Shown piece by piece: positions 4,789 to 37,897 of a DNA stretch of 37,897 nucleotides. Position numbers and translations under genes: made by a program. The stretch is from Deltaproteobacteria bacterium (lineage in GTDB: Bacteria > Desulfobacterota > Binatia > DP-6). The stretch lies in contig VBKF01000089.1 in the NCBI GenBank assembly GCA_005888095.1, forward strand, positions 1-37,897. Reading direction: 5' to 3'. The notes below the pieces were generated by a model. It was not told the origin of the DNA, did no database searches, and saw nothing but the letters and a program-made list of their open reading frames with translations. How positions within the stretch are numbered: the first letter of the stretch is position 1; each line of letters begins with the position of its first letter.

Positions 4789-7635
4789 GTGGCATGTCTG
4801 TTGCTCGGGCAATGCCTGAGGAGTCCGCCGCTGCGACCGCCGCAGCAAACCACCGCAGGTCTGATAGGCCTCGCCCTCTTGCGGCTCGCGCCTTCCACGG
4901 CGACGGCGGCGACCCTGACCCGAGGCCCCTACCTGCAGCTGCTGACACGGCAGTCGGTCACGGTCGTCTGGAACACGGAGGCGGCGGCCGCCTGCGCACT
5001 TGCGATACGCCCGCTCGACGGGATGCCGACCGTGCGCGCGGGCGGGACCGGGACGGTCTGCGCCATCGCCGTCGACGGCCTGACGCCGGGCGCAGCCTAT
5101 GCCTACGCGCCCCTTGCCGACGGCGTCCCGCTCGCTCCCGAGGCGGTGTTCCGGACCGACGACGCGAACCGGCCCTTCAGCTTCCTGGTCATCGGCGACT
5201 CCGGGTGCGACTGCTCGGATCAGCTGGCCGTGCGCGACACGATGCTCAAGACGCCGGCCGACTTCATCCTCCACACCGGCGACATGGTCTACGACACCGG
5301 CGCGCCACAGGACTTCGACCCCTCCTTCTTCGCGCCCTACCGGGATCTCATCCGCCGGCTCGTGCTCTGGCCCTGCCTCGGGAATCACGACGTCGAGACC
5401 GCGGGCGGCGCGCCCTGGCGCGACGTCTTCCATACCCCGGCCAACAATCCGGCCGGCAGCGAGGACTACTACTCGTTCGACGACGGGAACGCGCACGTGG
5501 TGGTGCTCGACAGCAACGCCAGCACGAGACCCGGCAGCGCGCAGTACACCTTCCTCGACCATGATCTCGCGGCCAGCACCGCCACCTGGAAGCTCGTTGC
5601 TTTCCACCACACGATCTACTCGAGTGGAGGGGTACACGGCAGCAACCTCACCATCCGGGCCAACCTCGTGCCGCTCTTCGACGCGCACGGCGTCGACCTC
5701 GTGCTCATGGGGCACGAGCACAACTACGAGCGCACGAAGCCCCTGCGCGGCAACCAGGTGGTCTCGGCGGGCCAGGGCACGACCTACATCACGACCGGCG
5801 GGGGCGGGCAGGCACTGTACCGGGTCGGGTCGAGCAGCTTCACGGCTCACTCGGAATCGGTCCACCACTTCACGCGCCTGGCGGTGAACGATGGCAGCCT
5901 CCTCGCGCAGATGATCCGCACGGACGGGACGATCGGGGACGAGGTGATGCTCATGAAGGGCGGCGTGCCGCTTCCGCCGCGGTGCGGGGATGGGCTCGTC
6001 AACCAGCCGGGCGAGCAGTGCGACGGGGCGGACCGCGCGGCCTGCGCCGGCCCGTGCGCCGCGGATTGCACCTGCGCGCCGGTGTGCGGCGACGGGCGCG
6101 TCGATCCGCCGGCCGAGGCGTGCGACGGGTCGGATGACGCCGCCTGCCCGGGGCTCTGCCTGTCGAGCTGTCGGTGCGGCGACCCGGCGGACTTCCTCAC
6201 CCTTCCCCCCGCGGCCGACACCTTCATCGAGTCGGGAACCCAGGCGACGTGGGATCACGGCGCCGCCGCCCACCTCGACGCGTCGGCGCTGTCCGACCTG
6301 ATCTATCTGAAGTTCGACCTCTCGGCGGTGCCGGCGCCCGTGACCCGCGCGACGTTGATGCTGCATTGCATCGACGGCTCGGACGACGGCGGAGCCATCT
6401 ACCCCGTCGCGGATTCGCGCTGGGTCGAGGGTGACCGGACCGGACTGGACGCCACGAGCGCGCTCGGGCCGGGCCTCAAATGGAGCGACGTGGACACGAA
6501 CGGCGACGGGGTGGTGGACACGCGCGACACCTCGCCCTGGCTCCCCGAGTTCGCCCGCGCGATGCGCGGGTTCGGCAGCGTGGTGGCCGGCCGCGACTTC
6601 ACGGTCGACGTGACCCCGGCGTTCCAGGCGGGCCCCGGCCTGTACGCCCTGGCAATCACCACCAACAGCAGCAACAAGGTGACGTACTCGTCCCGCGAGA
6701 GTGCGACGCCTCCCGTGCTACGCGTCGAGCTCGCACCTCCGGGGACGACCACCACCACGAGCACGTCGATGACCTCGACGACCAGCTCGACCGTGCCGAC
6801 CACGTCGACCACCGTGCCGACGACGTCCACCTCCACGACGTCGACCACGACGTCGGTCACCTCCACGACGTCCGCCACAACGACCTCGACAACCAGCTCC
6901 ACCACCTCGTCGACCTCGACCACGTCGACCACCGTGCTGGCGACCACGACGTCCACCACCTCCACCACAACAACGACGTCAACGACCAGCTCGACCGTGC
7001 CGACCACGTCGACCACCGTGCCGGCGACCACGACGTCCACCACGACGACCTCGACCAGCACCACGACCACGCCGACATCTCCGAGCGCGACAACCTCCAC
7101 CACGACATCTGTCGTTCCCAGCACGACGACATTGCCGCCGGGAACGACGTCCACCACCACGCCCCCCGACGACTGCCAGACGGATGCCGATTGCGATCGT
7201 GATGATCCGTGCAGGCCGAGGCGCTGCGTGGCGCAGCGCTGTCAGGACGCGCCGCTCATGGGTCTCGAGGCGGTGCGCTGCGCGCTGGCGCTCGAGGGAG
7301 AGCGGGCACTCGCATGTGGCGGGAGGCGGTTACCGCCGACCCTGAGTCTCGCACTCGGCCGGACCCGGGCTGCGATCGAGGCAGCGGAGAGCTCGGGCAG
7401 CGTGAAGCACGCGAGGAATGCCCTCCGCGGCGCCCTGCGGTTGCTCGACGCCGCGGCTCGCAAGCTCCGCAAGACCGAAGCCAGCCATGCGATCGATGCC
7501 GACTGCGGCAGGGCGCTGAGGGGAGTGCTCCGCGACGCGAGGGTCCTGGCCAAGCGCTATCTGAAGAACCGGCCCGAGACTGCCGCGCGGACTGCCGTCC
7601 CGCGCGGGCCCCAGAGGATCGGCACCGCAGACTGA
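4789..7635 (+). CDS. Secreted purple-acid-phosphatase-like metallophosphoesterase with Cys-rich repeats, DNRLRE-like domain and Thr-rich linker
   Basis: Exported enzyme of ~948 residues. After a signal region (GLIGLALLRLA...TATAA) and an Ig/FnIII-like domain, the metallophosphoesterase core shows the family's metal ligands in order: GDSG (~136), GDMVY (~164), GNHD (~198), FHH (~280) and GHEHNYE (~308). Residues ~397-465 hold two Cys-rich repeats starting CGDG. Residues ~467-650 resemble a DNRLRE (carbohydrate-associated) domain beginning 'DTFIESG'. A ~140-residue Thr/Ser linker follows, then a Cys-containing 'DCQTDADC' stretch and a helical C-terminal domain. Likely releases phosphate from organic esters outside the cell. 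The start is uncertain: no ATG is available in frame, and GTG at 4789 or TTG at 4801 give a plausible signal peptide. The gene is divergent from the hydrolase. Confidence 0.8.
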   Translation: MACLLLGQCLRSPPLRPPQQTTAGLIGLALLRLAPSTATAATLTRGPYLQLLTRQSVTVVWNTEAAAACALAIRPLDGMPTVRAGGTGTVCAIAVDGLTPGAAYAYAPLADGVPLAPEAVFRTDDANRPFSFLVIGDSGCDCSDQLAVRDTMLKTPADFILHTGDMVYDTGAPQDFDPSFFAPYRDLIRRLVLWPCLGNHDVETAGGAPWRDVFHTPANNPAGSEDYYSFDDGNAHVVVLDSNASTRPGSAQYTFLDHDLAASTATWKLVAFHHTIYSSGGVHGSNLTIRANLVPLFDAHGVDLVLMGHEHNYERTKPLRGNQVVSAGQGTTYITTGGGGQALYRVGSSSFTAHSESVHHFTRLAVNDGSLLAQMIRTDGTIGDEVMLMKGGVPLPPRCGDGLVNQPGEQCDGADRAACAGPCAADCTCAPVCGDGRVDPPAEACDGSDDAACPGLCLSSCRCGDPADFLTLPPAADTFIESGTQATWDHGAAAHLDASALSDLIYLKFDLSAVPAPVTRATLMLHCIDGSDDGGAIYPVADSRWVEGDRTGLDATSALGPGLKWSDVDTNGDGVVDTRDTSPWLPEFARAMRGFGSVVAGRDFTVDVTPAFQAGPGLYALAITTNSSNKVTYSSRESATPPVLRVELAPPGTTTTTSTSMTSTTSSTVPTTSTTVPTTSTSTTSTTTSVTSTTSATTTSTTSSTTSSTSTTSTTVLATTTSTTSTTTTTSTTSSTVPTTSTTVPATTTSTTTTSTSTTTTPTSPSATTSTTTSVVPSTTTLPPGTTSTTTPPDDCQTDADCDRDDPCRPRRCVAQRCQDAPLMGLEAVRCALALEGERALACGGRRLPPTLSLALGRTRAAIEAAESSGSVKHARNALRGALRLLDAAARKLRKTEASHAIDADCGRALRGVLRDARVLAKRYLKNRPETAARTAVPRGPQRIGTAD
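6745..7161 (+). repeat. Thr/Ser-codon linker repeat in the phosphoesterase gene
   Basis: About 417 nt of ACC/ACG/TCG-rich codons, including near-identical subrepeats such as the block reading 'SSTVPTTSTTVP' that occurs twice. It links the DNRLRE-like domain to the Cys-rich and helical C-terminus. Its internal duplications suggest slippage or unequal recombination in multiples of three. Confidence 0.85.
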
Positions 7636-25875: not shown

Positions 25876-26754
25876 GTGCACCTCGGCATCCTCATGTTCG
25901 TGACCGAGCGGGCGCTCCCGGTCACGGATCTGGCGCGCGCCTGCGAGGCGCGAGGCGTCGAGTCGCTCTGGGTGCCCGAGCATCCGATCGTCCCCGCGCA
26001 GTACGAGACGCGCTACCCGCTCGCGGAGGACGGGAAGATGCCGCGGCCCTACACCGAGCTGCCCGACTGCTTCGCCACGCTCGCCGCGGCCGCCGCGGTC
26101 ACGCAAGAGCTGCGGGTGGCGACCGGCATCTGCCTCGTCCCGGAGCGCGACCCGCTGCACACCGCGCTCCAGGTCGCCACGCTCGACCTGCTCTCCGGCG
26201 GCCGCTTCCTCTTCGGCGTCGGCGCCGGCTGGCTGCGCGAGGAGATGCAGCTCTTCGCGCCCCACTTCCCGCATCGATTCGCGTTCCTGCGCGAGGCGAT
26301 CGCGGCCATGCGCAAGCTCTGGACCGAGGAGCGCCCGTCCTTCGAGGGCCGCTGGGTGCGGTTCCCGCCCGTCGTCTGCCGGCCGAAGCCCGTGCAGAAG
26401 CCCCATCCGCCCGTCATCCTCGGCGGCATGGGGCCGAACGCCCGCAAGCGGGTCGCGGCCTGGGGCGACGGCTGGCTCCCCATCGGCCTCCCACCCGACG
26501 ACGTGGCCGAGGCACGGCGCGAGATCAGCCGGCGCGCACTCGAGCACGACCGCGACCCGGAGGCGATCTCGCTCACCGTGATGATCGGCGCCCCGCCCGG
26601 CCTCGAGACGCCGAGCCTCGAGACGATCCCCGATCGCGACACGCTCGCCCGCTACCGGGACGCAGGCGCCGACCGCGTCGTCGTCTCGCTCCCCACCCTC
26701 GGCGCCGACGACGCCTACCGCCACCTCGACCGCCTCGCCTCCGCCGCGCCGTAG
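25876..26754 (+). CDS. LLM-class (probably F420-dependent) oxidoreductase
   Basis: A 292-residue TIM-barrel protein of the bacterial-luciferase-like superfamily. It shows HLGILMFVTERALPVTDLARACEARGVESLWVPEH, split by the typical first strand and helix, then ATGICLVPERDPLHTALQVATLDLLSGGRFLFGVGAGW, the superfamily's most conserved block, and PVILGGMGPNARKRVAAWGDGWLP. The subtype with 'PEH' and 'RYP' near residues 34-50 corresponds to F420-binding enzymes of TIGR03619 type. It would transfer hydride to or from F420 in a hydrocarbon or xenobiotic step; the substrate is unknown. GTG start after a 4-nt gap. Confidence 0.88.
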   Translation: MHLGILMFVTERALPVTDLARACEARGVESLWVPEHPIVPAQYETRYPLAEDGKMPRPYTELPDCFATLAAAAAVTQELRVATGICLVPERDPLHTALQVATLDLLSGGRFLFGVGAGWLREEMQLFAPHFPHRFAFLREAIAAMRKLWTEERPSFEGRWVRFPPVVCRPKPVQKPHPPVILGGMGPNARKRVAAWGDGWLPIGLPPDDVAEARREISRRALEHDRDPEAISLTVMIGAPPGLETPSLETIPDRDTLARYRDAGADRVVVSLPTLGADDAYRHLDRLASAAP

Positions 26755-27289: not shown

Positions 27290-27539
27290 TTACCTCACCT
27301 GGACGACTCGCGGGAAGGCGGGGTCGCTGCCGCGGCGCGTTCGCCAGGGCGGACGCGGGCGTGCAGCACACGGCGCTGCCTGCGGACGCGACGCGCCGAG
27401 GCGGAGCGCCGCTGCAGAGTGGCCCTGCGCACGTGCGGCGAGCGACTCTGACGGAGCGACGCGCGCGTGACGGGCCGCGTGCTGCGACGCCCCGCCGGGC
27501 GTCACGGCGCCCTTGGGCACCGGCGTTGCTAAGTCCGGC

Positions 27540-27989
27540 GTGCGACGTTTTCGAGCCGAGCAGCGCGGGGCAACCCTCCTGGAAGTCCTCATATCAACGG
27601 CGGTGTTTGCCATCGTGCTCGGTATGGCGGTCCCGAATCTGCGCGCCATGTCGGCCCCGTGGGCGCTCTCCGGCGCGACCACCCAGATCGTCGCGGACCT
27701 CCAGGTGGCGCGCCAGCGGGCGATCGCCCGCAATGCCCGCTACCGCATCACGTTCACGGCGCCGCGCAGCTACGTGCTCGAGATCGAGACGTCGCCCAAC
27801 ACCTTCGTCGCCGACACGGCGGTGCAGAAGCTACCCGCCGCGGCGACCCTCGGCACGGTGAATCCGGGCATGCCGATCTTCGACACGCGGGGCATGCTCG
27901 GTGCCACGGTAACTCTTTCGGTGACGGTTCCGAACGCCGGAACCCGGACGGTGACCATCAATGTACTCGGGAAGACGACCGTCAGCTGA
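27540..27989 (+). CDS. Type IV minor pilin / pseudopilin, FimT-GspH like
   Basis: A 149-residue prepilin: basic leader MRRFRAEQRG, then the cleavage site G|ATLLEV with Glu at +5 and a hydrophobic helix (LLEVLISTAVFAIVLGMAVPNL). This is followed by the FimT/GspH pattern 'ADLQVARQRAIARNARYRITF' and a C-terminal beta domain. Such minor pilins prime pilus or type II pseudopilus assembly at the inner membrane. GTG is chosen as start since it leaves a leader of 10 residues; TTG at 27513 is the alternative. It begins a run of four pilin-like genes on the same strand, the next one overlapping by 29 nt. Confidence 0.85.
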   Translation: MRRFRAEQRGATLLEVLISTAVFAIVLGMAVPNLRAMSAPWALSGATTQIVADLQVARQRAIARNARYRITFTAPRSYVLEIETSPNTFVADTAVQKLPAAATLGTVNPGMPIFDTRGMLGATVTLSVTVPNAGTRTVTINVLGKTTVS

Positions 27990-28410
27990 TCGCCGACGGC
28001 GGGCGCGCTCGCGCGGATTCTCGCTCCTCGACGCGCTCGCGGGCCTCACGTTCATCGCGGTGAGCCTCCTCGGGCTCTCCGCGGCGTCGGTGTCTCTCAC
28101 CCGCAACTCCAAGGGCGCCGACTCGACCAGCGCGGGCACTGCGCTCGCGCAGCAGAAGCTCGAGCAGCTGCGCAGCATGCCGCTCGGCGCCACCGAGCTG
28201 AAGCCCGGTATCTACTACGACCCAGCGAACAAGCTGAAGGCCGACGGGACGTCTGGCGGCATCTTCGACCGCAGCTGGACCGTGTCGCTGAACGACACCC
28301 CGCGGGTGGGGCTGAGAACCGTCACGGTGACGGTCGCGTGGACCGACTCGCGGTCCCACTCCACCCAGGTCGCCAGCTACGTGCGCTGCAGCACGATCCC
28401 CTGCTCATGA
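27961..28410 (+). CDS. Type IV minor pilin, PilV-GspI like
   Basis: A 149-residue prepilin-like protein: a long basic leader (MYSGRRPSADRRRRARSRG) before G|FSLLDALAGLTFIAVSLLGLSA. At +5 it has Asp instead of the usual Glu (FSLLD), a conservative but uncommon change at the position needed for N-methylation and assembly. The remainder has the PilV/GspI-type 'ALAQQKLEQLRSMP' helix and a beta domain ending with CSTIPCS. The ATG lies within the end of the preceding gene; the stop overlaps the ATG of the next (ATGA), so expression is tightly coupled. Confidence 0.8.
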   Translation: MYSGRRPSADRRRRARSRGFSLLDALAGLTFIAVSLLGLSAASVSLTRNSKGADSTSAGTALAQQKLEQLRSMPLGATELKPGIYYDPANKLKADGTSGGIFDRSWTVSLNDTPRVGLRTVTVTVAWTDSRSHSTQVASYVRCSTIPCS

Positions 28411-29075
28411 CGCCCTCCCGCCGTCCCCGGAGCCCGGGCTTCTCGACCGCCGAGGTCCTCGTCGGCATGACGCTGTCGCTGCTGGCCGTCGGCACGCTCT
28501 ACTCCTTCTTGCAGGCTCAGCAGAAGGCGCACGCCACGCAGCGCACGTACTCGCAGAGCCAGACCGTCACCCGCACGGCGATCGACCTGATGACGCGCGA
28601 GCTCCGCATGGCGACCTTCGACCCAACGATACCCGGCGCGCTCACGACCTCGCAGCCGCCCAACTGCCCCGGCGTCAAGCAGGGCCTCGTCGAGGCCACG
28701 CCGAGCAAGATCCACTTCAAGCAGGACCTGGACGGCGACGGCCTGCTCACGGGGTCGAGCGAGGACATGGTCTACGACGTGCTCGGCAGCCAGATCCGCC
28801 GCACCGACGGCGCCGCGCTGCCCATCCCGATCGTCGACTACATCCCCGCCGGCGGCCTCAACTTCCGCTACTTCGACGGCTCGAACCCACCGAACGAGCT
28901 GGTTCCGGCCGGCACGCCGCCGCACCTCACCCCGGAGCAGCGCGACTGCGTCACCAAGGTGCGCGTCACGGTCCGGGCGAACCTTCCGAACCCGAACCCG
29001 CGCCTGACGACACCCGTCACCTCGGTCGCCGAGTCGGAGATCGCCATCCGCAACCGCTCGCTCGCCAACTTCTAG
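28407..29075 (+). CDS. Type IV minor pilin, PilW-GspJ like
   Basis: A 222-residue prepilin-like protein: leader MTPSRRPRSPG, then FSTAEVLVGMTLSLLAVGTLYSFL with Glu at +5. The helix continues with TYSQSQTVTRTAIDLMTRELRMA, the typical PilW/GspJ pattern of a polar helix with 'R.L..ELRMA'. The middle of the protein has an acidic loop (DLDGDGLLTGSSEDMVYD) that could bind calcium, as some PilW/PilY1-linked pilins do. Begins at ATGA overlap with the PilV-like gene and ends 19 nt before the PilX-like start. Confidence 0.85.
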   Translation: MTPSRRPRSPGFSTAEVLVGMTLSLLAVGTLYSFLQAQQKAHATQRTYSQSQTVTRTAIDLMTRELRMATFDPTIPGALTTSQPPNCPGVKQGLVEATPSKIHFKQDLDGDGLLTGSSEDMVYDVLGSQIRRTDGAALPIPIVDYIPAGGLNFRYFDGSNPPNELVPAGTPPHLTPEQRDCVTKVRVTVRANLPNPNPRLTTPVTSVAESEIAIRNRSLANF

Positions 29076-29094
29076 CCTGGGGGGAGAATCCGCG

Positions 29095-30279
29095 ATGTCA
29101 CGCAAGCCGAAGAGAGCGGATCGGGGCATGGTCCTCGTCATGGCGCTCTTCACCATGGCGGTACTTCTCGCCGCCGCCACCGGGGCGCTCCTCGTCGGCA
29201 GCTCCGACATCCGCGCCACGCGGAACTACCGGGGCGCGGCGCAGGTCCACTTCGCGGCCGAGTCGGGCATCCTCGACGCGATGCAGACCGTGAACGGTCC
29301 CGGCGTCGTCAACCTACAGAACGAGGTCGTGAACCAGTGGACGGCCCTCTGGGGCACGAGCGCCCGGAACTTCGGGCCGTTCAGCGGCTTCACGTACACC
29401 GTGGCCGTCTACTCCGGTGCGAACCCGGCCAACGACGGCCGCTTCGTCGCCACGGCCAACGGCATCGAGGGCGTGAAGAACGTCGTGGTCGCCAACCTGA
29501 CCCGCTCGAACATCCCGTCCACGGCGCCGGGGGCGATCTACCTCGTGAACGACTCGCAGACCAACGCCACGTTCAACGGCGATGCCTTCACGGTGGACGG
29601 CAACGACCACAAGTACACGGGCGGCATGGGGACCGCCCCGCCCGTCCCCGGCATCTCGACCCGCAACGCCACGAACACGCAGGAGACGCTCAACAGCCTC
29701 GCCGCCCAGCAGAAGGACGACGTCACCGGTCTGGGCTACTCGATGGGTCCGCCCGTCGTCCCGAGCGTCATGACGTCGCCGGCGGCGCCGAGCAGCACCC
29801 AGCTGGACCGGATCATCACCGACATCCTCGGCCGCCGGGGCGACCCGCCCAATCCGCCCGATGACAACACCAAGAACATCAACGGCATCCAGACCTACGG
29901 CACGCCCGCCAACCCGCAGATCACGCACCTGAGCAACACGACCGGTGTGATCCTGAACGGCAACGCCACGGGCGCCGGGATCCTGGTCGTCGAGGGCGAC
30001 CTCACCATCAAGGGAGACTTCAACTTCGTCGGCCTCATACTGGTGCGCGGCCAGACGAGGGTCGACACCGACATCAGTGGCAACGCCACCATCTTCGGGT
30101 CGCTCTGGACGGAGGACCTGAACCTCATCGTCGGCGGCAGCGCGATCATCGACTACAGCTCAGACGCGCTCGCGCTCGCCAACCTGGTGGGGGGAGGCGG
30201 TGCGCTGCCCGCACCGGTGAGGGTCACCTCCCTCGTCGACTGCGGCGACGTCCCGGCCGGCGCCGCCGGCTGCCCGTAG
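29095..30279 (+). CDS. PilX-like type IV pilus assembly/minor pilin protein
   Basis: A 394-residue protein with a basic start and DRGMVLVMALFTMAVLLAAATGALL, the PilX N-terminal hydrophobic segment, followed by RNYRGAAQVHFAAESGILDAM, where 'AESG' is highly typical of PilX N-domains. The rest is unusually long for PilX (often 150-200 residues) and carries a repetitive beta region (ILNGNATGAGILVVEGDLTIKGDFNF...SGNATIFGSLW), like a beta-helix seen in PilX-like proteins of delta-proteobacteria. A GGGGGGAGA site precedes the ATG. The last gene of the pilin run; no PilY1 or main pilin gene follows. Confidence 0.8.
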   Translation: MSRKPKRADRGMVLVMALFTMAVLLAAATGALLVGSSDIRATRNYRGAAQVHFAAESGILDAMQTVNGPGVVNLQNEVVNQWTALWGTSARNFGPFSGFTYTVAVYSGANPANDGRFVATANGIEGVKNVVVANLTRSNIPSTAPGAIYLVNDSQTNATFNGDAFTVDGNDHKYTGGMGTAPPVPGISTRNATNTQETLNSLAAQQKDDVTGLGYSMGPPVVPSVMTSPAAPSSTQLDRIITDILGRRGDPPNPPDDNTKNINGIQTYGTPANPQITHLSNTTGVILNGNATGAGILVVEGDLTIKGDFNFVGLILVRGQTRVDTDISGNATIFGSLWTEDLNLIVGGSAIIDYSSDALALANLVGGGGALPAPVRVTSLVDCGDVPAGAAGCP

Positions 30280-35072: not shown

Positions 35073-35417
35073 CTAGCCGGGCTTCTCCTGCTCTTTCAGC
35101 TGCCGCTTCCAGTCCAGCATGCGCGCCTTGGCGCTCTCGGCTTCCGCCTCCGCGATCATGCCCGCCGCCTGGTAGAACCGTGAAAGACTGGTGTGCGCGA
35201 GCGTGTCGTCGGGCACGAGCTCGACGAGGCGCTTGCCCGCCTCGATCGCCTGGTCGTGCTGCTTGAGCTCGCTGTAGGCCATGGCGAGGCCGTGCCAGGC
35301 GTCGGAGTAGCCCGGGTCGAGGGTGATCGCGGCCCGATAGGTCTCGACCGCCTCCTCGAGCTTGCCGTCCGCGAAGAGGTCGATCGCCCGGTCGTACAGC
35401 TCTTCCTTGCTCGCCAT
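35073..35417 (-). CDS. TPR-repeat protein
   Basis: A 114-residue protein made of about three TPR units: ELYDRAIDLFADGKLEEAVETYRAAITLDPGYSDAWHGLAMAYSELKQHDQAIEAGKRLVELVPDDTLAHTSLSRFYQAAGM, cut here into its repeats, with the usual W/L/G/Y/A/F/A/P positions. The end is a charged helix (AEAESAKARMLDWKRQLKEQEKPG). TPRs mediate protein-protein binding; the partner is unknown. The first gene of the CoA-transferase operon; the -10 box lies 7 nt before its ATG. Confidence 0.85.
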   Translation of the reverse strand: MASKEELYDRAIDLFADGKLEEAVETYRAAITLDPGYSDAWHGLAMAYSELKQHDQAIEAGKRLVELVPDDTLAHTSLSRFYQAAGMIAEAEAESAKARMLDWKRQLKEQEKPG

Positions 35418-35459: not shown

Positions 35460-35488
35460 TTGACACGCTCGGGAAGCGCCCGTACGCT
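35460..35488 (+). promoter_or_regulatory. Promoter of the luxE-luxC-like operon
   Basis: A perfect TTGACA, 17-bp spacer, TACGCT; the -10 ends 8 nt before the GTG start. The two divergent promoters lie back to back, a place where one regulator could control both operons. Confidence 0.5.
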
Positions 35489-35496
35489 CGCCGCGC

Positions 35497-36576
35497 GTGA
35501 GCAGCGCCGTTTCGTTGGAAGCCGGGCTCGCGGCGGCGATCGCGACGCGAGAGGCCCTCGACTTCGAGGCGTGGGCGCAGCGGATCTTCCGTCATCAGTT
35601 CGAGCGCAACGCGCCGTACCGTGCCTTCTGCGAGCGGCGCGGCGTCCGCCCGGAGACCGTGGCGCGCTGGGAAGACGTGCCCGCCGTTCCGGCGGCCGCC
35701 TTCCGTCGCGCCGAGCTCGCGTGCGGGCCGCCGGAGGCGATCTTCCGCACCAGCGGCACGACGGATGCGGAGTCGCGCGGCCGCCACCTCGTCCCGCATC
35801 TCGCCCTCTACCGCGCGAGCGCGCTCGGCGCGTTCGAGCGCTTCGTGCTGCCCGACGGCGCTCGTCTCGCCTGCCTCTTCCTCGTGCCGTCGCCCGCGCT
35901 GCGGCCCGACTCCTCGCTGGCGCGCATGTGCGCGTGGGTGGGCGAGGCGTTCGGCCGCGGCGTCGAGTGGCTCGTCGGTCGGGACGGGCTCGACGTCGAG
36001 CGGCTCCTCGCGTCCCTCGCGGACGCCGAGCGGCGGGGCGAGGCGGTGCTCGTCGGTGGCGTGACGTCGGCGTTCGTCCGGCTGTTCGACGCCTGCGCGG
36101 CGCGCCGGCTCGCGTTCCGGCTGGGCCCCGGCAGCCGCGTGATGGACACGGGTGGCACGAAGGGGCTCGGGCGCCCGCTTTCGCGCGCCGGCTTCCTGCG
36201 CACCTGCTGGACCATGCTCGGCGTCGCCGGCTACCACTGCGTCAACGAGTACGGCATGACCGAGCTCTGCTCGCAGCGCTACGAGAGCGCGCTGCGTGAC
36301 CGCTTCGACGGGCGCGGGCTCGCACCGCGGCGGCTCCTGGCGCCCGCGTGGCTCAGGACGCGCGTCCTCGATCCCGACACGCTGGCGCCCGCCCGGCCGG
36401 GCGAGGTCGGCCTCCTCTGCCATCACGACCTGGCCAACGCCGGCTCGGTCTCGGTGGTCCTCACCGACGATCTCGGACGGACCGTCGGTGAAGACGGCAT
36501 CGAGGTCACGGGCCGCGCGGCCGGCGCCGCGCGGCGCGGCTGCGGTCTGCTCCTCGCGGAGCTCGCCGGCTCGTGA
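35497..36576 (+). CDS. LuxE-like acyl-protein synthetase (adenylate-forming)
   Basis: A 359-residue adenylate-forming enzyme of the LuxE type: FRTSGTTDAESRGRHLV (~83-99) is the ATP-binding loop with the acyl-protein synthetase 'SSGTTxxxSxxR' form, and CVNEYGMTELCSQ (~248-260) corresponds to the A5 motif of the family. The C-terminal ~70 residues hold LLCHHDLANAGSV and VVLTDDLGR. In luminous bacteria LuxE activates a fatty acid as acyl-AMP and passes the acyl group to LuxC. No luciferase (luxAB) lies in the window. GTG start; the stop overlaps the next gene by GTGA. The first gene of the operon. Confidence 0.85.
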   Translation: MSSAVSLEAGLAAAIATREALDFEAWAQRIFRHQFERNAPYRAFCERRGVRPETVARWEDVPAVPAAAFRRAELACGPPEAIFRTSGTTDAESRGRHLVPHLALYRASALGAFERFVLPDGARLACLFLVPSPALRPDSSLARMCAWVGEAFGRGVEWLVGRDGLDVERLLASLADAERRGEAVLVGGVTSAFVRLFDACAARRLAFRLGPGSRVMDTGGTKGLGRPLSRAGFLRTCWTMLGVAGYHCVNEYGMTELCSQRYESALRDRFDGRGLAPRRLLAPAWLRTRVLDPDTLAPARPGEVGLLCHHDLANAGSVSVVLTDDLGRTVGEDGIEVTGRAAGAARRGCGLLLAELAGS

Positions 36577-37817
36577 GCGGCCCTTGCGATACGCCGGCCG
36601 AGCTCGCTGCGCTCGTCGCCGACGCGGTCCGCGCCCGCACCCGGCTCCGCGCCAGGGCGATCGGCGACACCGCCGAGGCGCTCGGCGCGGCCGCGGCGCG
36701 CTGGGGCACCGATGCCGAGCTGCTCCGCGACCTGCCGGCCGTGGCGCGCCTCTCGGCGCCGGTCGTCGCGGCGGCGGTGCGCATCGCGGCCGCCGCGCTC
36801 GACACGTCCGCCATGCTCGCCCTCGTCGAGCACGAGTTCGGTGCGGGGGCCGCCGGTCGCCCCGCGCCCGCGGGGCCTTCGCTGGTGGGCCACGTGCTCG
36901 CCGGGAACGTTCCCGCGCTCGGGCTCCCGGCCATCGCGCTCGGCTGCCTGGTGGGCGCGGCCGTGGTCGTCAAGTCGGGCCGGGACGACCCGCTCTCCGC
37001 GCCCGCTTTTCACCGCGCGCTCGCGGCCGTCGATCCGGCGCTCGCCGCGACGGTCGTGACGGCGTACTGGCCGGGCGGCGAACGCGCGTGGGAGGAGGCC
37101 GCCTTCGCGCGCGCCGACGTCGTCGTCGCGAGCGGCACGGACGAGACGGTGGCGGCGCTCGCGGGACGTCTCGGTGCGCGGCTCCTGGCCCACGGCGAGC
37201 GGGTGAGCGTGGCGGCGGTCAGCCGGGAGGGCCTCGGGCGCGACGAGCCGCTCGCCGAGCGCCTCGCGCTCGACGTCGCGCTCCACGACCAGCGCGGCTG
37301 TCTCTCGCCGTGCGCGGTGTACGTCGAGGCTGACGGGCGCCTTTCCCCGATGGCATTCGCCGAGCGGCTGGCCGCCGCGCTCGACACCGTGGCGCGGGCG
37401 CTGCCGCCGGGGCCGGCCACGATCGAGGAGCGGGCCGCCCGGCGCACGCTCGAGGGCGAAGCCGAGTGGGAGCCCCGCTGTCGCGTGCTCGGCGGGGCCG
37501 GCGGGCTCGTCGTCTACGACCCGCGGCCGGCGTTCCGCCCGATCGCGGGCCGGCGCGCGATCCGGCTCCATCCCCTGGACACGCTCGCCGCGCTGCCCGT
37601 GATGCTCCCGCGAGGCCGGGTCGAGTGCGTCGGGCTGGCGGCGTCGGGTCCCGAGACGGCGGCGCTGGTGCCGGCACTGCGCGCGCTCGGCGTCGCCCGC
37701 ATCTGCCCCATCGGCCGCATGCAGCAGCCGACGCTCGCCTGGCCCCGCAGCCAGCGGCTGCCGCTCGGCTCGCTCCTCGGCCGCCCGGGCCCGAGCGCGC
37801 TCGAGGTCGAGGCGTGA
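36573..37817 (+). CDS. LuxC-like acyl-CoA reductase (aldehyde-dehydrogenase superfamily)
   Basis: A 414-residue protein of the LuxC/acyl-CoA reductase family. It has the nucleotide-binding region SLVGHVLAGNVPALGLPAI (~104-121) and CLVGAAVVVKSGRDDPLSAP, VVVASGTDETVAALAGRLG, and DQRGCLSPCAVYVE, in which C243 aligns with the acylated Cys of LuxC. It would reduce acyl-protein or acyl-CoA to the fatty aldehyde with NADPH, taking the acyl group from the LuxE-like partner. GTG start overlaps the luxE-like stop, and its own stop overlaps the next GTG in the same way, so the three proteins are probably made in equal amounts. Confidence 0.85.
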   Translation: MSGPCDTPAELAALVADAVRARTRLRARAIGDTAEALGAAAARWGTDAELLRDLPAVARLSAPVVAAAVRIAAAALDTSAMLALVEHEFGAGAAGRPAPAGPSLVGHVLAGNVPALGLPAIALGCLVGAAVVVKSGRDDPLSAPAFHRALAAVDPALAATVVTAYWPGGERAWEEAAFARADVVVASGTDETVAALAGRLGARLLAHGERVSVAAVSREGLGRDEPLAERLALDVALHDQRGCLSPCAVYVEADGRLSPMAFAERLAAALDTVARALPPGPATIEERAARRTLEGEAEWEPRCRVLGGAGGLVVYDPRPAFRPIAGRRAIRLHPLDTLAALPVMLPRGRVECVGLAASGPETAALVPALRALGVARICPIGRMQQPTLAWPRSQRLPLGSLLGRPGPSALEVEA

Positions 37818-37897
37818 GCGAGGATGACCTGCACGCGCTCTTCCTGCGCCACGTCTGCCAGACGTCGCCGGCGCCCCTCGGCATCACGGTGGCGCGC
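37814..37897 (+). CDS. N-terminus of a probable class III aminotransferase (cut by the window)
   Basis: Only 28 residues are visible: MSEDDLHALFLRHVCQTSP then PLGITVAR. The pattern 'F.RHV.QTS..PLGL.I.RA' is how class III (acetylornithine/GABA-type, PLP) aminotransferases often start just before their first strand. The call is therefore tentative. The GTG overlaps the luxC-like stop (GTGA), so it belongs to the same operon and could aminate the aldehyde made upstream. Confidence 0.4.
   Translation, partial: MSEDDLHALFLRHVCQTSPAPLGITVAR

Follow-up and report, generated by a model that had tools for sequence, protein, structure and literature searches.

A conserved LuxE-LuxC-aminotransferase operon in Binatia, a candidate route from free acids to primary amines

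Here, we report a three-gene operon at the right-hand end of a 37,897-base stretch of DNA (the window; bases 1 to 37897 of the 208,793-base contig VBKF01000089.1) from a deltaproteobacterial genome of the class Binatia (5.46 Mb in 271 contigs). The operon joins a LuxE-family acyl-adenylating synthetase, a LuxC-family acyl reductase, and a class III pyridoxal phosphate (PLP) aminotransferase, and, judging by sequence, it probably encodes a pathway from a free acid, most likely a fatty acid, through an aldehyde to a primary amine. The predicted succession of acid, aldehyde, and primary amine is well supported by comparison, through the genes present, the order in which they stand, and the residues of the active sites. 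A preliminary description of this DNA had proposed a long-chain amine as the product; the acid is likely a long-chain fatty acid by analogy, the evidence on chain length being the lux precedent and one thioesterase-bearing locus (family f3).

The LuxE gene (35497-36576, plus strand, 359 amino acids [aa]) encodes a TSGTT loop (residues 85 to 89), the motif NEYGMTE (250 to 256), and a C-terminal RGC that contains Cys349. The LuxC gene (36573-37817, 414 aa, with Cys243 and Asn112) comes next on that strand, and after it the first 28 codons of the aminotransferase gene (37814-37897), which, read from the longer contig, is complete at contig bases 37814 to 39010 (L034:9815-11011; 398 aa). All three genes have GTG starts, and both junctions are GTGA stop/start overlaps (36573-36576 for LuxE/LuxC, 37814-37817 for LuxC/aminotransferase), as first described. 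The next called gene is on the minus strand, and the operon therefore ends after the aminotransferase. Upstream, a possible weak promoter (TTGACA-17-TACGCT, 35460-35488, plus strand) ends 8 bases before the LuxE start. Of the single TTGACA promoter that had been proposed, the TTGACA itself is present (35460-35465) and recurs in four of six aligned sequences, the window's own counted among them, but the downstream hexamer TACGCT equals TATAAT at just three of six positions, and a consensus promoter scan found no site.

Both lux-type proteins pass the gathering cut-offs of their Pfam families (LuxE, PF04443, 54 bits against 24.9; LuxC, PF05893, 141.5 bits against 21), in keeping with their initial naming as a LuxE-like synthetase and a LuxC-like reductase. 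The nearest solved relatives of both are chains of 7xc6, and both are remote (LuxE, E value of 2e-13; LuxC, chain A, E value of 3e-10). Cys243 of LuxC aligns with the Cys of DQQACFS in the solved LuxC of 7xc6 and is kept in 75/75 alignment rows (Asn112, 74/74), and Cys349 of LuxE is kept in 73/73. The same columns also hold Cys in 9/9 LuxE and 8/8 LuxC proteins from outside contexts. We take Cys349 and Cys243 to be the acyl-carrying cysteines, a role known from the lux literature; Cys243, which had been described as acylated, is thus confirmed in place and conservation, and would be acylated by analogy.

The 28-codon fragment in the window gave no family match by itself. Extension of the contig and hidden Markov model (HMM) comparison of the complete protein bore out the class III aminotransferase that had been read from that fragment (PF00202, 335 bits; E value, 5e-100; cut-off, 30.5). 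In the alignment, the PLP lysine (Lys250) is kept in 70/70 rows, Glu193 in 71/71, and Arg374 in 67/68. The ArgD motif FHGRT reads FHGDT in the triad aminotransferases, with Asp140 in 71/71 rows and Arg in 19 of 20 ArgD-like rows, which were drawn from the lower-scoring matches of the aminotransferase search. The lost Arg is the binder of the substrate carboxylate in acetylornithine-, ornithine-, and GABA-type aminotransferases, and Glu193 and Arg374 correspond to the Glu243/Arg426 pair of YgjG, which is tied to 2-oxoglutarate (both from an excerpt of PMC4244111). Loss of the carboxylate-binding Arg together with retention of the Glu/Arg pair therefore fits an aldehyde-to-amine enzyme like TamH and PigE. 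Compared with the Protein Data Bank (PDB), the family profile matched putrescine aminotransferase 4uox best (371 bits; 1vef, 369 bits).

In a maximum-likelihood tree of 99 aminotransferase rows, the 72 triad proteins formed one clade with moderate support (96/74, where the second value does not reach the threshold of 80 set by the tool). None of the 20 ArgD-like rows fell within this clade; 19 of them grouped with six reference proteins elsewhere in the tree, and the twentieth (L135) was a very long branch. Within the clade, families f1, f4, f5, f6, f7, f9, f10, f11, f13, and f15 each grouped and f14 did not, and this grouping of most families fits mostly vertical descent. The two named relatives carry the label Myxococcota in the tree tool. 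A plasmid-borne aminotransferase of Aureibacter (L115) joined just outside the clade on a long branch (100/95) and had in common with it the motifs QTSPxPLG and VYGE and, at the key site, a residue other than Arg; the 21 kb read around it contained no match to LuxE or LuxC. On that plasmid (pAT2, L115:9418-11179), a GNAT acetyltransferase gene stands 7 bases ahead of the triad-type aminotransferase, a hint that the amine there is possibly N-acylated.

Acetylornithine transaminase models gave the best NCBIfam scores of the window aminotransferase, and a zinc alcohol dehydrogenase gene follows the aminotransferase in single loci of f11, f13, and f15 (L050, L041, and the contig-end fragment L042, respectively), where it might divert the aldehyde. 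Both facts favor an arrangement in which LuxE and LuxC make an aldehyde or alcohol and an ArgD-like aminotransferase adjoins them by accident. We consider this extremely improbable. No NCBIfam model was over its cut-off among the 25 matches listed of 69 (argD, 347 against 410; PRK03244, 364.5 against 457; PigE, 298.5 against 850; YgjG, 300.9 against 612), the diagnostic Arg is lost in 71/71 rows, and most genomes have a second ArgD-like match elsewhere, among the matches listed; the agreement of the three genes across genomes, given below, points the same way. An ArgD identity for the third gene was accordingly rejected by the cut-offs, Asp140, the separate tree clade, and the second ArgD-like match. 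Three other aminotransferases (two from triads and that of Aureibacter) likewise reached no NCBIfam cut-off among the 25 matches listed of 68 to 69.

Conservation of the triad was assessed in 98 genomes of the class, the window's own genome and its nearest relatives included; the genomes are related, so their presence/absence counts are not independent. LuxC was found in 78/98 genomes and LuxE in 79/98. A triad-type aminotransferase scored at least 417 bits in 75 genomes, with no other whole match among those listed exceeding 283 bits, and was cut by a contig end in three more (G001, G075, and G069). All three genes were present in 77 genomes, none in 18, and part of the set in 3 (G006, G073, and G074; estimated completeness, 80 to 88%), so that presence or absence agrees in 95/98. 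Absence does not purely follow family, since G018 and G041 are without all three genes and each has a congener (G037 and G015, respectively) that carries them.

Gene order was scored at one locus per genome in 76 of the 78 genomes that carry LuxC, G073 and G075 being excluded. In 56/76 loci, the triad is contiguous, with estimated gaps of <250 bases, and 12 more loci have the same strand and order with a wider gap (68/76 in total). The remaining 8 loci are without one gene in the stretch read; four of these stop at a contig edge (L072, L088, L094, and L109). In G010, G046, G063, and G070, the aminotransferase is absent from the locus and present elsewhere in the same genome, and in G013 and G096, LuxE lies 8 and 5 kb away, respectively. 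These six genomes with one relocated gene retain all three, and parted genes are therefore still kept together in the genome. Because of this conservation, which the preliminary description had left to be looked for in related genomes, chance is excluded for the observation.

Overall, the proposed route has three steps; it starts with a free carboxylic acid, which is most likely fatty, and ends with a primary amine. By its family, LuxE would use ATP to form an acyl-adenylate and then load the acyl group onto its C-terminal Cys349. By family again, and with the Cys conserved, the acyl group would pass to Cys243 of LuxC, where NAD(P)H would serve to reduce it to the aldehyde. To judge from its active-site residues, the aminotransferase, loaded by glutamate, would convert the aldehyde to the amine and would need no carboxylate on its substrate. 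We infer the reactions, their direction, and the fatty nature of the acid alike.

The direction could be reversed, with an amine transaminated to an aldehyde and the aldehyde oxidized to an acyl group, as in amine catabolism. The membership of LuxC in the broader aldehyde dehydrogenase superfamily counts toward this possibility. So does the precedent of class III enzymes like YgjG, which degrade amines with an aldehyde dehydrogenase acting next (excerpt of PMC4244111). We nonetheless hold it to be very unlikely, as an ATP-using LuxE-type enzyme at the head of the operon would suit the activation of an acid and not its release, and no transporter was found among the 38 neighbor proteins compared with Pfam (part of all neighbors, several of them without any match).

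Elsewhere, LuxE/LuxC pairs occur with other partners. Among 297 genomes sampled from the phylum, LuxC was found (E value, ≤1e-15) in 23, of which 11 belong to the class and 12 do not. The aminotransferase (E value, ≤1e-95) was found in 11 genomes, all of the window's class, and within this sample it is the partner special to that class. LuxE precedes LuxC in 12/12 outside-class loci, and no aminotransferase match was found in the stretches read there, three of which are <5 kb. Partner genes were named in four of the 12 (L155, L158, L163, and L165). Peptidase U32-like proteins are encoded at L155 and L158, and L155 also has FAD oxidoreductase and HMGL-like genes; L163 has a short-chain dehydrogenase/reductase (SDR) gene and a FabA-like gene whose match is just under the cut-off; and L165 has acyl carrier protein (ACP) and alpha/beta hydrolase genes. 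Read by eye, L156, L158, L160, L161, and L162 show a recurring FAD oxidoreductase-like and Peptidase U32-like cluster, mostly with an HMGL-like gene, as at L155; the Pfam basis of this cluster is L155 and one gene of L158, and the other loci were assigned by eye. On plasmids of Azospirillum and Priestia (L054:6472-12313 and L056:6469-12305), LuxE, LuxC, a three-gene ATP-binding cassette (ABC) transporter set, and an SDR gene lie on one strand, and the same gene run in two very distant bacteria suggests that an imported carboxylic acid is reduced to an alcohol. In Pantoea, an SDR gene follows the pair. The five plasmid stretches read (L054 to L058) contained no match to the triad aminotransferase. 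LuxE/LuxC looks like a reused module.

Evidence for a fatty substrate comes from family f3 (L045), in which a metallophosphoesterase gene and then a thioesterase-like gene follow the aminotransferase gene on the same strand, with overlaps. The thioesterase-like protein matches the acyl-ACP thioesterase models PF01643 (E value, 4e-9) and PF13279 (E value, 1e-12). LuxD fills the thioesterase role in lux operons.

Several observations weigh against the fatty acid-to-amine reading. LuxE and LuxC score 51.4 and 48.4 bits against lux equivalog cut-offs of 550 and 750, respectively (NCBIfam NF052244/NF052251), and a match to the f3 thioesterase occurs in 1/76 loci. No destination for the product is apparent from the counted neighbors, among which the sole recurring one with a lipid-type match is the SDR (PF13561), found in 23/76 loci. 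As a single protein, the window aminotransferase has its best PDB match in the acetylornithine/LysJ-type 1vef (297 bits; 4uox, 266 bits), and the predicted structures of the aminotransferase and LuxE (mean predicted local distance difference test [pLDDT] scores of 37 and 45) were too poor and were left unused. Between LuxC and the aminotransferase lie 1.7 to 2.6 kb in 7 loci and, in family f3, a 145-aa frame. The pathway is dispensable, because 18/98 genomes are without it. Finally, the LuxE family also serves non-fatty acids, for example through the LuxE domain within RfbN, in tetronate synthesis (excerpt of PMC4772473).

This last precedent is part of the case for a rather unlikely alternative, namely, the same chemistry on a non-fatty acid (a hydroxy acid, a sugar acid, or another small acid) to supply a surface glycan or a cofactor. 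LuxE/LuxC genes also occur in flagellin glycosylation islands (excerpts of PMC7874193 and PMC4875605), behind the plasmid pairs come an ABC transporter set and an SDR (Azospirillum and Priestia) or an SDR (Pantoea), and with so little identity to the lux enzymes, the substrate pocket remains open. Among the 38 neighbor proteins compared with Pfam, however, no glycosyltransferase was found; an epimerase-type/PRISE protein is encoded in f5, on the opposite strand between LuxC and the aminotransferase. The single accessory enzyme in the operon that indicates a substrate is thioesterase-like, in the one locus of f3, which tells for a fatty acid. Two outside-class pairs have an upstream ACP (L165) or FabA-like (L163) gene, and the argument from them is weak because ACP genes occur in flagellin islands too.

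Around the operon, the divergent tetratricopeptide repeat (TPR) protein (35073-35417, minus strand; PF14559 and other TPR models) is genomic context outside the proposed pathway and is the most frequent counted neighbor, matched in 42/76 loci. The other flanking proteins are a 90-aa protein (30 loci), a 177-aa protein (27), a release-factor protein (25), the SDR mentioned above, and a 104-aa protein (18). In the window, the SDR gene is on the opposite strand, 2.9 kb from LuxE, and its match is of the enoyl-ACP-reductase type. These genes are matched in part of the loci only and therefore appear to be an old chromosomal neighborhood and not parts of the pathway; a pathway role for the six was dropped on account of this patchiness, though the SDR may have one. 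A sphingoid precursor, the other product that had been suggested, was likewise given up, as no supporting gene was found among the 38 neighbor proteins.

Six genes were called downstream of the operon, to contig base 47998; their matches are to Dictyostelium-repeat, beta-helix, MoxR-type ATPase, DUF58, and BatA/VWA models, and one has no match. On the opposite strand directly after the operon, a large protein with a Thr-rich linker and Dicty_CTDC repeat was noted (L034:11030-14272; contig bases 39029 to 42271). No luciferase-family match was found among these six genes in 9 kb, and the luxA and luxB genes that stand beside luxC and luxE in a bioluminescence operon are not present there; the candidate location of luxAB just beyond the window edge was rejected, and the reading of the operon as luciferase free holds for this interval. 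Elsewhere in the genome, outside the operon flank, the luciferase-like family (PF00296) has 38 matches, some of them fragments; the one that was typed further (25876-26754, about 9 kb to the left, in the window) is over the cut-off of the F420-dependent oxidoreductase model TIGR03619. Two other parts of the window were noted, a low-complexity stretch at about 6399 to 7160 that is Val rich in the minus-strand reading and a gene run at 27513 to 30279 that, by eye and from its N termini only, resembles genes for type IV pilus minor pilin and PilX-like proteins.

As to function, the aminotransferase tree follows families and most sampled genomes keep the genes, and this favors a core role, in the cell envelope or elsewhere, over one in secondary metabolism. 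It is possible, though doubtful, that an ancestral, vertically inherited fatty-amine pathway in the core metabolism of the class feeds an undescribed aminolipid or lipid-anchored envelope component, and that a further class III aminotransferase family, common to at least one member of the Bacteroidota, acquired long-chain aldehydes as substrates separately from TamH and PigE. If the acid-to-amine route is true, it would be a simple three-protein cascade that has no dedicated ACP and is useful for biocatalysis, and one would expect these bacteria, known here from genomes alone, to contain a lipid or envelope molecule that bears an amine. The operon also suggests that LuxE and LuxC form a general module for carboxylate reduction in which a further partner sets the product, be it light, an alcohol, a glycan part, or an amine.

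Among the papers listed in searches of the open-licence PMC literature, no title or displayed abstract opening described a LuxE-LuxC-class III aminotransferase operon. The bioluminescence pair LuxC-LuxE belongs to the same Pfam families and shares the conserved cysteines; here, in contrast, an aminotransferase is in the operon, no luciferase-family gene stands beside it, and scores are far below the lux equivalog cut-offs. The pairs of flagellin islands and plasmids resemble the operon in having both families outside bioluminescence and differ in their partners (SDR, ABC transporter, ACP, or glycosyltransferase). YgjG, a putrescine aminotransferase, is likewise a class III enzyme that has lost the carboxylate-binding Arg and kept the Glu/Arg pair; in the excerpt of PMC4244111, however, Lys replaces the Arg, which is Asp here, and YgjG degrades diamines. 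PigE of prodigiosin synthesis also combines a thioester reductase with a class III aminotransferase and takes an acyl thioester to an amine (excerpt of PMC8341465), and its aminotransferase domain (4ppm) matches the window protein at 216 bits and the family profile at 304 bits, but PigE is a single fused protein with a reductase of another family. A close parallel in chemistry is the natural-product pair TamA-TamH (tambjamine YP1, Pseudoalteromonas tunicata; excerpt of PMC9594044), within the literature consulted the one characterized way of making a fatty amine from a free fatty acid, with activation of the acid by ATP, reduction of a thioester to the aldehyde, and class III transamination from Glu; in vitro, TamA and TamH turned a C12 acid into the C12 amine with ATP, NADH, and Glu. 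By the same excerpt, TamA combines ANL and ACP in one fusion, and in TamH a transaminase is fused to a reductase that is of the acyl-ACP reductase type and not LuxC; both belong to a natural-product cluster. Here, by contrast, there are three separate genes with LuxE and LuxC, no ACP, and a class-wide distribution, and instead of the reductase-aminotransferase fusion of TamH and PigE, the two enzymes are encoded in separate frames with a GTGA overlap. The operon is a new version of an already known type of cascade.

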